DNA from: Chloroflexota bacterium
Lineage (GTDB): Bacteria > Chloroflexota > Anaerolineae > Anaerolineales > VGOW01
Direction of reading: 5' to 3'
Length of the DNA: 64,000 nucleotides
NCBI GenBank assembly: GCA_016197225.1
Contig: JACPWC010000114.1
Span: 1-64,000, forward strand
The notes below the pieces were generated by a model. That model was not told the origin of the DNA. It did not search any database and worked only from the letters and a program-made list of their open reading frames with translations. How positions within the stretch are numbered: the first letter of the stretch is position 1; each line of letters starts with the position of its first letter. A program made the position numbers and the translations under genes. Positions 15,040-39,002 of the stretch are shown here, in pieces.

Positions 15040-15117
15040 GAATTACACGAATTCACACGAATTTGTTTGCCCAAGAGCAATTCGTGATAATTAGCGAAAT
15101 TCGTGGCTGAATTTGTC
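15040..15117. repeat. AATTCGTG-word quasi-palindrome
   Basis: The spacer between the divergent methyltransferase and elp3 genes contains CACGAATT words on the left and AATTCGTG words on the right, in several imperfect copies. It overlaps the upstream end of both open frames and so confuses start prediction. Confidence 0.65.
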
Positions 15118-15156
15118 GCCCAAACTAGCAGAGACGTTTTGAATTATACTTGCCTC

Positions 15157-16872
15157 ATGCATTCTGACCTCGCCCACTGGCGCGAAACGCATTTTCACGA
15201 CGACGAACACGATGAACACATCCTGCCCATCGTGCAAGCCGTGCGCGCCTTGCCGATATTCACCGCCAACGATTTGGGCGACCTTCTCCGCCGCCACCCC
15301 AAACCCGGCGGCGGCGCGTTCAGCAAGCACCACATCGTACAAGCTTACAAGCGATTGTGCGAGGCGGGCATCATTCCTTTCGAGCGCGACACCCTCAAGC
15401 GACTGCAAATGAAACCCACGCGCACCATCTCCGGCGTGGCCCCCGTCACCGTGCTCACCAAACCGTACCCCTGCCCCGGCAAGTGCATCTTCTGCCCGAC
15501 CGACGTGCGCATGCCCAAGAGCTACCTGCACGACGAGCCGGGCGCCATGCGAGCCGAGCAGAACAACTTCGACCCCTACGCCCAAACCGCCAACCGCATC
15601 CGCGCTTTTGAACTCAACGGCCACAGCGCGGCCAAAGTGGAACTGCTCATCCTCGGCGGCACGTGGTCGTCGTACCGCCGCGACTATCAAGAATGGTTCG
15701 TCCAGCGTTGCCTCGACGCGATGAATGGACGCGACTCCGCTTCTCTTGAAGAGGCGCAGCGCTGGAACGAAAACGCCGCCCACCGCAACGTCGGCCTGGT
15801 CGTCGAGACCCGGCCCGACCATGTGACATGGGACGAGATTCGCTGGCTTCGTCATCTCGGCGTCACCAAAGTGCAAATGGGCGCGCAGAGTCTGGATGAT
15901 CACATTCTGGAGATCAACAAACGCGGCCACACCGTCGAGCAAACACGGGAAGCCGTCAGCCTGCTCCGGGCCGCCGGATTCAAAATCGTCCTGCACTGGA
16001 TGCCCAACCTGCTCGGCGCAACGCCCGACTCCGACCGCGCCGATTTCCTGAAGTTGTGGAGCGACCCCGGCCTGCGCCCCGACGAACTCAAGATTTACCC
16101 CTGCTCGCTGTTGGCCAACGCCGAGCTTTACGACTACTGGCAGAGAGGCGAGTACACACCTTACACCGACGACGAATTGCTCGAACTCGTCGCCGATTGC
16201 CTGACGAAAGTGCCGCGCTACTGCCGGGTCAACCGCGTCATTCGCGACATTCCGGCCCCCAACGTTGTCGCCGGGAGCAAGCGCTCCAACCTGCGGCAGG
16301 ATGCCGAACGACTGATTAGCGAGCGCGGCCAGAAATACGAATGCCTGCGCGCCCGCGAAGTGCGCGGTGCAACGGTTGAGGCCGCCGACCTGCACCTTGA
16401 AACCTTCACCTACGAAACCCGCGTCGGCGTCGAGCACTTCATCTCCTTCGTCACCAGCGCCGACAAAGTCGCAGGATTTCTACGCCTCTCGCTCCCGGCC
16501 CCCACCCCGGCCCTCCCCCGTCGAGAAGAACACTCGACAGGGGAGGGAGCCGACTCCCCTCTCCTGTTCGGTGCTGTTCCGAACGGCGCGCAAGCGGGGG
16601 TTGGGGGTGAGGGCCACCTCCCCGAAATCGCCGACACCGCCATGATTCGCGAACTCCACATCTACGGCCCCGCCCTCAGCCTCGGCGACGACAGCAGTGG
16701 CGAAGCCCAACATTTAGGCCTCGGCACGCAACTCCTGACCGAAGCCGAACGACTCGCCGGGGAAGCCGGATTCAACAAAATGGCCGTCATCTCGGCCATC
16801 GGCACCCGCGAGTATTACCGCAAGCGGGGGTTTGAGGTGGAGGGGTTGTATATGACGAAGAGGTTGGAATAA
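15157..16872 (+). CDS. elp3: Elp3-like radical SAM tRNA acetyltransferase with repeat insertion
   Basis: A 571-residue protein of the Elp3 family, which uses a radical-SAM domain and a GNAT domain to modify wobble uridine 34 of tRNA. It shows a helical N-terminal domain, the Cys cluster in PYPCPGKCIFCP, RMPKSYLHDEPGAMRAEQN, VQMGAQSLDDHILEINKRGH, and the terminal acetyltransferase part HLGLGTQLLTEAERLA to YYRKRGFEVEGLYM. Between the two domains, about residues 447-490 are Pro/Gly/Arg-rich and encoded by a palindromic repeat inserted in frame (16496-16625). A TATACT -10 box at 15145-15150 abuts the chosen ATG, suggesting a near-leaderless mRNA. The small gene that follows starts 2 nt after the stop. 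Confidence 0.92.
   Translation: MHSDLAHWRETHFHDDEHDEHILPIVQAVRALPIFTANDLGDLLRRHPKPGGGAFSKHHIVQAYKRLCEAGIIPFERDTLKRLQMKPTRTISGVAPVTVLTKPYPCPGKCIFCPTDVRMPKSYLHDEPGAMRAEQNNFDPYAQTANRIRAFELNGHSAAKVELLILGGTWSSYRRDYQEWFVQRCLDAMNGRDSASLEEAQRWNENAAHRNVGLVVETRPDHVTWDEIRWLRHLGVTKVQMGAQSLDDHILEINKRGHTVEQTREAVSLLRAAGFKIVLHWMPNLLGATPDSDRADFLKLWSDPGLRPDELKIYPCSLLANAELYDYWQRGEYTPYTDDELLELVADCLTKVPRYCRVNRVIRDIPAPNVVAGSKRSNLRQDAERLISERGQKYECLRAREVRGATVEAADLHLETFTYETRVGVEHFISFVTSADKVAGFLRLSLPAPTPALPRREEHSTGEGADSPLLFGAVPNGAQAGVGGEGHLPEIADTAMIRELHIYGPALSLGDDSSGEAQHLGLGTQLLTEAERLAGEAGFNKMAVISAIGTREYYRKRGFEVEGLYMTKRLE
16496..16625. repeat. Palindromic repeat inserted within elp3
   Basis: The left arm contains GGCCCCCACCCCGGCCCTCC and the right arm GGGGGTTGGGGGTGAGGGCC, imperfectly complementary. 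Inner arms CGAGAAGAACACTCG and GGTGCTGTTCCGAACGGCGC frame the centre. C-rich/G-rich repeats of this type are normally intergenic. Here the sequence is 3n long and stop-free, adding roughly 40 residues to the protein. Confidence 0.8.
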
Positions 16873-28188: not shown

Positions 28189-29812
28189 TTTTCTCGCCCC
28201 GCTTTTTCGGCCCCCACCATCTTCAACAATTCTTCTGCGCTTTGCCGGGTAGCTTCACCCTCGGTGCCCAGCATCTGGGTAATCTCTTCCACGCGCTCGG
28301 CGGCGGAAAGCGGTTGCACTTCGGTGGTGGTGCGCCCACCACCGCCCCCACCCGCCCGCCGATGCCCTGATCAATCTCGTCGAAGATCAGGGTGGGCGTG
28401 CGGTCGGCGCGGGCCAGCACCCCTTGGAGGGCCAGCATCAGCCGCGCCGTTTCGCCGCCGGAGGCGATCTTCACCAACGGTTTTAATCCCTCACCGGGGT
28501 TGGGCGCAATGAGAAATTCGATACGGTCAATGCCGGTGCTGTCAAAGGCCACCCGCTTATCCTTGTTCACCAGCGCCCCGTCGTCGGCTTCCTCCCACTG
28601 CACGTCCACGCCAAATCTGGCCCCTTCCATTCGCAGGTCGCCCAGTTCGGCTTCGATGCCTTGCGCCAGCCGTTCGCCTGCCTCGCGCCGCACCGCCGAC
28701 AGCGCCTGCCCCAGCTTGCCGAGCTTTTTCAGCATGGCCTCTTCCTGTTTTCGCAGAGCTTCGATGCGTTCGCCGGCGTGGGTGATGCCTTCGAGGTCGG
28801 CCTGAGCCTTTTCGCCGAAGGCGTTGACGTCCTCTATCGTGTCCCCGTATTTGCGTTGGAGCGACTTGATCAGGTCAATTCGTTCTTCCACCTGATCGAG
28901 CCGTTTGGGGTTGAACTCGATGGCTTCGCGGTAGCCGCGCAAGTCACGCGCCAGTTCAGTGAGTTGTTCGGAAAGGGATTGGGCAGTGTCACGGTGCTGT
29001 TCGAGAGTCGGGTCAATCTTGGCCAGGCTGTTGAGGGCACGAACGGCCTGCCCCAGCAAGTCGGTGGCAGAGTGTTGATCATCCACCCCCTCAGCGGCGG
29101 CGACAATAGCTTCGTCAGCCAGAGCGGCCAGCTTTTCGGCATTTGCCAGCCGCGTTCGTTCTTCGAGCAACACTTTGTCTTCGCCGGGCTTGAGCTTGGC
29201 CGACTCAATTTCGTTGATCTGAAAGGTGAGCAGGTCGGTGCGGCGGGCGGCATCTTTCTCGCCGCGCACCAGTTCGCCAAGTTCGTGGCGCACGCCGTTG
29301 AGTTCGCGGACGGCGGTTGCCAGTTCGGCGCGTTGCGACTCTAAACCGGCATAACGGTCGAGCAGGTAGACATGCTCGCGCACGCGCAGAAGCGAGAGAT
29401 GCTCGGACTGGCCGTGAATGTCCACCAGTTGCTGGCCGATCTCTTTGAGGATGGCCAGGCTGACGGTGCGCCCGTTGACCCGGCAGACGTTGCGGCCTTC
29501 GCGGCGGACTTCACGGGCGAGCGTCAACGCTTGCCCGTCACCTTCATCCTGCAATTCTTCTCGTTCGAGAATCGGGTCAACCGCCGTTTTTAGTTCGGCG
29601 TCGAGTGTGAACACACCCTCGAGCCGGGCGACCTCGGCCCCGGCCCGCACCATTGTCGCGTCGCTTCGCCCGCCCAACAGCAAACTGACGGCGTCAATGA
29701 TGATGGACTTGCCCGCGCCGGTCTCGCCCGTCAGAACGTTGAAGCCGGGGGCGAACGTCAGTGTCAGGTTGTCTATGATGGCAAAGTTGGTGATGGTGAG
29801 TTCGGTGAGCAT
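28185..29812 (-). pseudogene. recN: recN, internally deleted and frameshifted
   Basis: A RecN DNA-repair ATPase (SMC-like). The N-terminal part is intact: Walker A GETGAGKSIIIDAV, the coiled-coil arms, the signature IASGGETARLMLALQG, and Walker B TLIFDEIDQGIGGRVGAVVG. After GAVVG the frame runs into unrelated text and stops at 28223. In the +1 frame the genuine tail resumes directly (GRTTTEVQPLSAAERVEEIT to EKAGREK) and ends at 28185, where its TGA overlaps the PilZ start. About 35-40 residues, including the THLPQ switch His, are missing. The break lies in a GGTGGTGG/CCACCACC hairpin (28323-28343). Either the gene is dead or the assembly collapsed here. Confidence 0.9.
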
Positions 29813-36739: not shown

Positions 36740-37006
36740 ATGACAAACCTTCAACTTCCAGATAACTTAGCAAAGCAGATACGGGAAACGGCTGAAGCGA
36801 TTGGGATAACGATCCCTGATCTGCTTCGCCAACTCATTTCAGATTACCGGCACAAACAGAATCAAGCTTTACCCGCCAGGCAACAAAGTAATGCAACTTC
36901 ACCTATAACCGAGCGTTTGAATGCAATTTATATAAAAGAGACATCGCCGTTGGACATGGCCCTATTCAAAATGCAAACCCTTTCGCTGGGCCGTGAACAA
37001 TGGTGA
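36740..37006 (+). CDS. Antitoxin of a MazF-type pair
   Basis: An 88-residue protein, expected to bind the toxin and repress the operon. The N-terminal 40 residues (LQLPDNLAKQIRETAEAIGI, TIPDLLRQLISDYRHKQ) look like a ribbon-helix-helix DNA-binding unit. The C-terminal half is polar and flexible and ends LDMALFKMQTLSLGREQW, suitable as a toxin-neutralising tail. It overlaps the toxin gene by 7 nt and has a consensus promoter. The GC content is lower than that of lysS and serS, suggesting acquisition. The exact antitoxin family is uncertain. Confidence 0.82.
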   Translation: MTNLQLPDNLAKQIRETAEAIGITIPDLLRQLISDYRHKQNQALPARQQSNATSPITERLNAIYIKETSPLDMALFKMQTLSLGREQW

Positions 37007-37362
37007 TTGAGCAGGGTGACATTTGGTGGGCAGAATTACCAGAACCGGCAGGATCTGAGCCTGGCTACCGACGGCCAGTCATCGTTGTTCAAAGCAATGA
37101 TTTCAATCGGAGTCGTATCCGCACAATTGTTTGTGTAGCACTCACTTCAAATGTAGCGCTGGCGGAAGCGCCAGGCAATGTTTTTATGCCCAGCAGCCTG
37201 ACTGGCTTGCAACGCGATTCTGTTGCGAACGTATCGCAGGTTGTCACTCTTGATCGAGGCTTTCTTACCGAGCGTGTTGGCCAGCTTGACTCCGATTTGC
37301 TGGAAGGAATTTTGGATGGCATAGAACTTGTCATAGGTCGGGGCCAATATTCAGGAGTTTAA
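37000..37362 (+). CDS. MazF/PemK-family endoribonuclease toxin
   Basis: A 120-residue toxin of the MazF/PemK fold: QGDIWWAELPEPAGSEPGYR at the N-terminus, RPVIVVQSNDFNRSRIRTIV (the conserved RPxxVxS element), then ALTSNVALAEAPGNVFMPS, LQRDSVANVSQVVTLDR and a C-terminal helix LLEGILDGIEL. Members cleave mRNA at short sequences in a ribosome-independent way. The Arg after GY and the Ser/Thr of the SQ/T segment, typical of the active site, are present. It is co-translated with the antitoxin. The next element is the serS T-box. Confidence 0.92.
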   Translation: MVIEQGDIWWAELPEPAGSEPGYRRPVIVVQSNDFNRSRIRTIVCVALTSNVALAEAPGNVFMPSSLTGLQRDSVANVSQVVTLDRGFLTERVGQLDSDLLEGILDGIELVIGRGQYSGV

Positions 37363-37374
37363 CTGAATCTTTAC

Positions 37375-37714
37375 TTGACGCATTCATCGCTCGCGGTATA
37401 ATCGCCCCAACTTTATAACCCAAAGACATAAAGAGACGTGTCACCGGGCAACTTTTCAGAGAGCCGCCGGACGGTGCGAGGCGGCAAGCCAACCAGGTGA
37501 TTTCCACTCTTGAGGCCAGAGCAAAAATGGCCTGTCGCCCCCGAAAGGTGTGGCCGGGTAAGCCCGTTATAGCGTTTGAGGTCGCAACTCCCACCCGACC
37601 CTCCCCCATTTTCACCCAACGAAAATAGGGGAGGGCAAGAGAAGGGTTCCGACAAAAGCAGGTGGCACCACGAGCGGCCCCTCGTCCTGCAAACGGATGA
37701 GGGGCCGTATTTAT
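37375..37714 (+). promoter_or_regulatory. Promoter and T-box riboswitch of serS (serine specifier)
   Basis: TTGACG (37375-37380) and TATAAT (37397-37402) form the promoter. The leader shows a stem I closed near TCACC (37441-37445) and GGTGA (37496-37500), followed at once by TTTCCAC; the specifier is TCC at 37503-37505, a serine codon. The antiterminator motif AGGTGGCACCACG is at about 37660-37672. The competing terminator pairs GGCCCCTCGTCC (37676-37687) with GGATGAGGGGCC (37695-37706) and ends GTATTTATTT. The specifier matches the downstream gene, so uncharged tRNA-Ser should switch on serS. Confidence 0.93.
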
Positions 37715-37733
37715 TTACTTGAAGGAGGCCATC

Positions 37734-39002
37734 ATGCTCGATCTAAATCTCGTTCGCAACCAAACTGACCTGGTCAAAGTGTCCATGAGCGCCAGGCGCT
37801 TTGACGCTCCAATTGACCGCGTGCTTGAACTCGACAGCCAGCGGCGGACTCTGCTCACCGAAGTGGAGCAACTCAAAGCCGAGCGCAACGCCGTCTCCAA
37901 AGAGATCGGCAAAATCAAGGACGCGGCGGAGAAGCAGGCTAAGATCGCCGAGCAGAAAGGCATGGGCGACCGCATCGCAACGCTCGACGAGCAGGTGCGG
38001 CAGGTAGAGGCAGAAATGGACGCCCTGCTCAGCGCCATCCCCAACCTGCTCGACCCGCGCGTGCCTGACGGCGACGACGACAGCCAGAACGTCGTCATCA
38101 AAACCGTCGGCGAGCCGAAGCAGTTGCCCTTTGAGACTAAGCCGCACTGGGACTTGGGCCAACAACTCGGCATCATCAACTTTGAGCAGGGCATCAAGCT
38201 CACCGGCTCGCGCTTCTACGTGCTTCACGGCGCGGGCGCGCGCCTGCAACGCGCCCTTATTTCCTGGATGCTCGACCTGCACACGCGCCGGCAGGGCTAC
38301 ACCGAAGTCTATACGCCCTTCATGGTCAAAGAGGCGACGATGTTCGGCGCCGGGCAACTGCCTAAATTCAGAGACAACCTGTACCGCGACGCCGAAGAGG
38401 ATTTGTGGATGGTGCCGACTGCCGAAGTGCCCGTTACCTGCCTGCACCGCGACGAAATTTTGGCCGCCGCTGATCTCCCCAAACGCTACTCAGCCTACAC
38501 CCCCTGCTTCCGGCGCGAGAAGATGGCCGCCGGGCGCGACGTGCGCGGCATCAAACGCGGCCACCAGTTCGACAAAGTGGAAATGTACATCTTCTCCCTG
38601 CCCGAAGAGTCAGACAAGGCGTTGGAGCAAATGCGCCAAGACGCCGAGCAGACCTGCGCCGAACTGGGGCTGGTCTATCGCGTCAAGCAACTCTGTTCGG
38701 GCGACGTGGGCTTCAGCGCCCGCACCACTTACGATCTTGAAGTTTGGGCGCCGGGCCAGAACGAGTGGCTTGAAGTTTCGTCCGTCTCAAACTGCGGCGA
38801 CTTCCAGGCCCGCCGGGCCAACGTGCGCTTCCGCCGCGAGCCGGCGGCCAAACCGGAGTTCGCCCACACCCTCAACGGTTCCGGCCTGGGCCTGCCGCGC
38901 ACCATGATCGCCGTCATGGAAAACTACCAGCAGGCCGACGGCTCTATTATCGTGCCGGAAGTTCTGCGCCCGTGGATGGGTGGAATTGACGTGATTCGTT
39001 AG
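37734..39002 (+). CDS. serS: Seryl-tRNA synthetase
   Basis: A 422-residue SerRS. The N-terminal antiparallel coiled coil that reads tRNA-Ser spans about residues 25-105 ([18 protein letters not shown]). The class II catalytic domain includes [19 protein letters not shown] (serine binding), [20 protein letters not shown] (motif 2), and [19 protein letters not shown] (motif 3). The ribosome binding site GAAGGAGG lies 7 nt before the ATG. It is controlled by a T-box leader with a matching serine specifier. The length and motifs are complete. Confidence 0.97.

Follow-up and report, generated by a model that had tools for sequence, protein, structure and literature searches.

Palindromic repeats that lie in frame within genes have been described since the RPE of Rickettsia, a repeat of about 150 bp which is found in many unrelated genes and adds a peptide to their products (excerpts of PMC10969869 and PMC3733652). 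REP sequences are likewise located within ORFs in several species, where their dimers code for 20-30 aa (excerpt of PMC3733652), and the partner gene RAYT is flanked by REPs (excerpt of PMC2817692); in the literature cited here, as far as the excerpts go, RAYT is the only mover that is named. Homing endonucleases of the EDxHD/Vsr type, a nuclease type related to the one discussed below, are present in phage introns (excerpt of PMC12350094), and ShiLan is a homing insertion in a phage methylase that carries an endonuclease and keeps the frame of its host with no splicing (excerpt of PMC11855218). In-frame palindromes (RPE and intragenic REP dimers) and a repeat-flanked partner gene (RAYT) are thus already known. 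What appears to be new here is a link between such repeats and the DUF559 domain. The insert in Elp3 from which the analysis starts belongs by itself with the known in-frame palindromes, and the DUF559-linked family perhaps represents a new kind. Within open-licence PMC, no report was found that ties DUF559 to palindromic repeats.

The repeat family of the Elp3 insert resembles RPE in being palindromic and in lying in frame in unrelated proteins. The comparison with RPE made in the preliminary description holds in the sense that the two work alike; they are likened by description and not by sequence, and size and family differ. A further difference is that the present family borders DUF559, whereas the RPE excerpts (PMC10969869, PMC3733652) name no partner gene. 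With REP, BIME and REPIN sequences it shares hairpin units that are present in numerous copies, alone or as inverted pairs, as seen from the genome matches and the covariation given below, and with the REP/RAYT system a partner gene flanked by repeats. Unlike in that system, the partner is a DUF559 endonuclease instead of a Y1 transposase, the flanking repeats are often direct, and no GTAG or CGTC end was seen. In contrast to EDxHD/Vsr-type homing genes, which Dassa et al. in 2009 reportedly connected with fractured genes, DUF559 is here bordered by palindromes and translatable within the host protein, and neither an intron nor an intein was seen. The ShiLan nuclease, by comparison, is of the HNH type and read in another frame, with no palindromic repeats named in the excerpt, whereas DUF559 lies here in the frame of the host. 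Same-site presence and absence with an endonuclease gene, as in MetH, is a likeness to homing endonuclease elements. Inteins with a homing endonuclease share with the present inserts the in-frame presence or absence at one site in conserved proteins, and DUF559 also occurs in inserts with intein motifs; unlike in inteins, no intein C-terminal motif was reported in three scanned MetH hosts at E <= 0.01.

The Elp3 insert and its repeat family

The window, i.e. the whole stretch of 64,000 nucleotides that was analysed, contains at 15103-16872 (+ strand) the gene elp3 for the tRNA uridine(34) carboxymethyl radical SAM/GNAT enzyme. Its 589-aa ORF matches NCBIfam TIGR01211 (ELP3) with 491.8 bits, above the cut-off, and the Elp3 of D. 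mccartyi (PDB: 5l7j) with E 3.9e-111. A double palindrome made of two inverted half-units lies in frame within this gene at 16497-16615 (+). The half-units were scored with R1, a covariance model built from 12 copies in the genome, the Elp3 copy among them. The first (16497-16550, +; 73.1 bits, E 1.7e-10 for the genome) is composed of a C-rich tail, an outer stem, a variable inner stem GTCGAG/CTCGAC, a 7-nt loop and a G-rich arm, while the second (16554-16615, -; 39.7 bits) has the inverse orientation and carries the GCGCGCAAGC variant of the arm. The C-rich and G-rich inverted arms that had been noticed from the letters are therefore real. As single-stranded DNA, 16497-16615 has a fold z-score of -3.83, with 1 of 200 shuffles folding equally well.

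In the protein the insert amounts to about 32 residues beyond the usual 17-residue loop; the repeat-coded stretch corresponds to approximately residues 466-504 of the 589-aa ORF (470-508 in the 593-aa open frame), and Pro, Gly, Arg and Glu are abundant in it. The alignment to 5l7j covers both sides of the insert and runs downstream as far as the end, in agreement with the earlier view of an added Pro/Gly/Arg-rich loop with the downstream Elp3 motifs intact. The placement of this loop between the radical-SAM and acetyltransferase domains has to be corrected. In an AlphaFold2 model calculated from 13 sequences (mean pLDDT 76.4), residues 472-503 have a pLDDT below 50 and form a disordered loop between the strands 456-465 and 513-520; with these strands read as part of the GNAT fold, the model places the insert inside the acetyltransferase domain, in a strand-strand loop. 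No DUF559 domain was seen inside Elp3 itself. The translated repeat has a further match in a 1029-aa ORF of the congener G004 (E 1.7e-7).

The repeat is dispersed through the 4.8-Mb genome of the window, beyond what chance would give, as a search for further copies revealed. The Elp3 insert gave 24 blastn matches at E <= 1e-3, and R1 gave 54 matches at E <= 0.01, a count that may include one palindrome twice, once per strand; merging the two sets by hand leaves about 50 places. The half-unit emerges as a hairpin of 51-63 nt with a C-rich tail, a conserved outer stem, an inner stem that varies freely yet stays paired, and a 7-nt loop, and it stands alone or, as in Elp3, as two inverted halves. 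The covariation score of the inner stem is 0.333 against 0.111 when shuffled (0 of 500 as high), and a sliding partner reaches at most 0.094. At E <= 1e-3, R1, whose training copies come from the window's own genome and whose E-values are rough, has 50 matches in that genome and 61, 19, 16 and 13 in the congeners G004, G003, G001 and G002. The family had been taken for a repeat of the intergenic kind, which is true in part: copies in spacers exist, but 22 of the 50 places are inside genes. One single copy in the window (37586-37638, +; R1 40.4 bits) lies in a spacer, between a short ORF at 37000-37362 and, downstream of the copy, a serS-like ORF at 37719-39002. The sole match in Rfam, mir-5391, was far below the gathering score and was taken as chance.

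Of 61 genomes, 57 proved to contain Elp3, and 30 loci were retrieved; a fragment, L005, yielded no loop. In the other families of the order, all 25 loci have an ordinary loop of 15-18 residues and no R1 match at E <= 1. The five species of the genus carry loops of 49, 33, 33, 24 and 21 residues at the same codon, and R1 matches the four congeners there with 46.7, 35.5, 32.6 and 31.2 bits. The loop is accordingly absent from relatives outside the genus, as the preliminary description had anticipated, and the longer loops within the genus match the repeat in each case, so that a homologous, non-repetitive loop was not encountered. The window's genome (G000) has a double copy; G001 and G003 each have a single forward one, G002 has a remnant in reverse orientation, and the copy of G004 is one long hairpin. 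A single old insertion followed by later deletions explains these five forms; repeated insertion at the same codon may be an alternative.

In-frame copies and the states of host sites

Reading all six frames at the 50 places gave 300 frames through the repeat, of which 246 proved open, which makes the repeat easy to read through. The 22 intragenic places were picked by hand, with no fewer than 45 aa on either side and either coding-like composition or homology, and were judged to be inside long coding frames of the genome. A Pfam family was detected in 18 of the 20 hosts scanned (L049 and L052 being without one, and the places L114 and C16:81106 lying outside the scan). A single domain match spans the repeat in eight hosts, the domains being the ValRS anticodon domain, FGE-sulfatase, amidohydrolase, a MobA-like domain, an ArsP permease, GH2, the N-terminal domain of GH31, and alpha-amylase. 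RecQ contains a 36-residue insert that the homologues of the congeners G001 and G002 lack, as does the homologue of G013; only 1-2 residues of the insert were aligned to the homologue of G006. The best matches of a phosphorylase host in other genomes are 26-41% identical, too distant for a comparison with an empty site. The ValRS of the window's genome (L154) bears two distinct repeat inserts, of which one is decayed and the other well kept, and on contig C16 of the same genome two in-frame copies, at 80260 and 81106 (L052), lie less than 0.9 kb apart in two ORFs.

In G010, a genome of another family, ValRS has a repeat peptide on either side of a DUF559 domain, all in a single frame. This arrangement led to a search for the domain (PF04480), which is present in 41 of 81 genomes. 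Frames of at least 400 aa hold 17 of the 63 DUF559 matches with E up to 3e-21. In MetH and ValRS one and the same site is met in three states: empty, with repeat only, and with repeat-DUF559-repeat in frame. At site 1 of ValRS the full form is found in G010, the repeat alone in G008 and G009, and 13 others are empty; from our reading of the peptide, the site appears to be decayed in G000 and G002. Among 30 loci of MetH, eight are empty (36-37 residues between the anchors), three have the repeat only or a remnant, four have repeat-DUF559-repeat in frame, one is unclear and 14 fall outside the pattern. Of the repeat-only versions, those in G073 and G064 match R1, the latter being a forward-reverse pair like the Elp3 copy, and that in G030 is decayed with no R1 match. 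The MetH of G009 provides a fifth case of repeat-DUF559-repeat. The three DUF559-bearing MetH hosts that were scanned (L244, L253, L254) still score above the TIGR02082 cut-off for MetH, and neither in these nor in L259 and Elp3 was the intein C-terminal motif TIGR01443 reported at E <= 0.01; for two UvrA hosts the scan results considered are 25 of 187 and 25 of 184 families. In five genomes of one family (L247, L248, L249, L250, L258) UvrA contains DUF559 at one common site, with Pro-rich repeat peptides on either side in L247, L249 and L250, and the PIG-L deacetylase of G006 also contains DUF559.

DUF559 genes between repeats

The only DUF559 gene of the window's genome (C117:28716-29033) lies exactly between two double repeats, at 28538-28652 and 29049-29159. 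With 50 places in 4.8 Mb, the chance of a family copy within 250 nt on both sides is about 7e-6. The two repeats differ in one inner stem, implying that they are not a fresh duplication. Across 30 DUF559 loci (87.8 kb) R1 gave 111 matches at E <= 1, and by a count made by hand 16 of the 30 have such a match within 250 nt on both sides; among the controls, the 12 Y1-transposase loci yielded a single match and the 25 Elp3 loci from beyond the genus none.

The same tendency is apparent in a test independent of the model, in which the two 300-nt flanks of DUF559 were aligned with one another, with a cut-off score of 40. Within the order, where 29 loci were used (L239 of the 30 being left out at a contig edge), 16 have direct flank repeats (scores 49-275, shuffles at most 30) and 13 do not, as against 2 of 52 controls, both of them Y1-transposase loci (Fisher 2e-7). 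In a set from the phylum, drawn afresh and not among the loci that gave rise to the idea, flank repeats in direct or inverted orientation border 16 of 24 loci (15 of the 22 that lie outside the order), and the other eight have none that match; among sliding positions in the same loci the count is 0 of 91. On plasmids of Cyanobacteriota, Deinococcota and Pseudomonadota, for which 12 of 34 records were fetched, flank repeats accompany 8 of 12 DUF559 loci, and they are seen in 0 of 9 control stretches, taken from nine of these 12 records, and at 0 of 129 sliding positions within those stretches. The sliding controls are mostly coding sequence, whereas DUF559 genes often sit in spacers. A count of hairpins in the plasmid flanks was set aside, as its controls lay for the most part within genes. 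In L216 the flanking repeats are as long as 173 nt and of high identity, and in the phylum and plasmid sets, whose flanks were inspected in part, those inspected are C-rich or G-rich hairpins.

Genome by genome, repeats are present in 29 of 41 genomes with DUF559 and in 11 of 40 without (p 1.4e-4). Within the families of the order the presence of DUF559 does not predict that of the repeats (permutation p 0.34), and given this result co-occurrence was dropped as a proof. DUF559 was not found in G001 and G003, genomes 63 and 76% complete which carry repeats.

As to the activity of the domain, the DUF559 of the window's genome matches PDB 3hrl, annotated as an 'Endonuclease-Like Protein' (E 9e-23). 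In three genomes of other families DUF559 occurs within inserts that end in an intein C-terminal splicing motif (L340 of G106, L341 of G097 and L342 of G082; TIGR01443 E 3e-6 to 1e-7). The hosts of L340 and L341 are N6/N4 DNA methylase genes by Pfam, and that of L342, a fragment, is probably also a methylase as we read its sequence. A Caulobacter DUF559 protein is tied to DNA damage in cells without a cytosine methyltransferase (excerpt of PMC12907096). All three lines fit a homing-type cutting by DUF559, an activity that the repeat-bordered genes may share.

A homing-type reading and its alternatives

The above observations suggest that the insert in Elp3 is probably a solo copy of a homing-type palindromic mobile element linked to DUF559, a reading we hold with some confidence. 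The complete element would consist of a repeat, a gene for DUF559 as a Vsr-like endonuclease, and a second repeat. DUF559 would cut a target, and repair of the break would copy the element into it; recombination between the flanking repeats would later delete DUF559 and leave a solo repeat behind. Since stop codons are scarce in the repeat, frame-preserving insertions would become Pro/Gly-rich loops, and selection would retain those situated in surface loops. The role of DUF559 as the mover of the repeats is the step against which the within-family permutation result and the repeats of G001 and G003 count.

The alternative that survives best treats the repeats as landing pads, which had already spread by other means, such as replication slippage or another transposase, and were entered by a DUF559 homing gene afterwards. 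It explains the flanking repeats, the solo copies in genomes without DUF559 and the weak link within families. The occurrence of solo and full forms at the same MetH and ValRS sites in several families argues against it, as does the fact that no other mover was found, neither point being decisive, and we regard it as rather unlikely though deserving of consideration. Considerably less probable is a REP-type palindrome moved by RAYT, a Y1/HUH transposase, as in Pseudomonas and E. coli, with DUF559 being incidental. PF01797 genes are indeed present in all five congeners, the hairpins and inverted pairs have the appearance of REP/BIME/REPIN, and two of the 12 PF01797 loci possess flank repeats of their own. 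However, R1 found no family copy alongside any of these 12 loci (a single match overall, 12.3 bits, E 0.67), on which ground RAYT was rejected as the partner gene, and none of 26 aligned halves, read by eye, ends in GTAG or CGTC. That a functional Elp3 loop grew by itself in the genus and is repeat-like merely through its G+C-rich sequence is scarcely credible: the loops of the congeners do vary in length (21-49 aa), but R1 matches at the same codon in all five, the 25 outsiders have 15-18 aa, and similarity at the DNA level extends to some 50 other places, the blastn and R1 matches across genome and congeners refuting such growth as the sole cause. An assembly error that joined a spacer repeat into elp3 would suit a draft genome of 126 contigs, given that assemblies break at repeats, but can be set aside in view of the preserved frame, the copy in separate assemblies of four congeners and the 22 in-frame places.

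Returning to the homing-type element, a more general proposition may be put forward tentatively, and we expect it to fail somewhat more readily than to hold: the C-rich palindromes of Chloroflexota, Cyanobacteriota, Deinococcota and Alphaproteobacteria may be the ends and solo remnants of a single mobile-element class, the enzyme of which would be a DUF559 Vsr-like homing endonuclease and not a transposase. With repeat, nuclease and repeat forming one open frame, such an element could live in essential proteins (MetH, UvrA, ValRS) with no need for splicing, and loss of the nuclease would leave a peptide scar, as in Elp3. As a partner of the repeats, DUF559, which is widespread and has no known function, would acquire a role, unusual Pro/Gly-rich loops of bacterial proteins would find an explanation, and selfish DNA would have a route for adding peptide segments to essential enzymes. 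With DUF559 as a physical partner of the repeats, the question becomes testable in culturable bacteria such as Azospirillum, Deinococcus and Picosynechococcus. On a plasmid of the alphaproteobacterium Azospirillum brasilense (NZ_CP059450.1; L297), a double palindrome of nearly the design seen in Elp3 is situated just upstream of a DUF559 gene.
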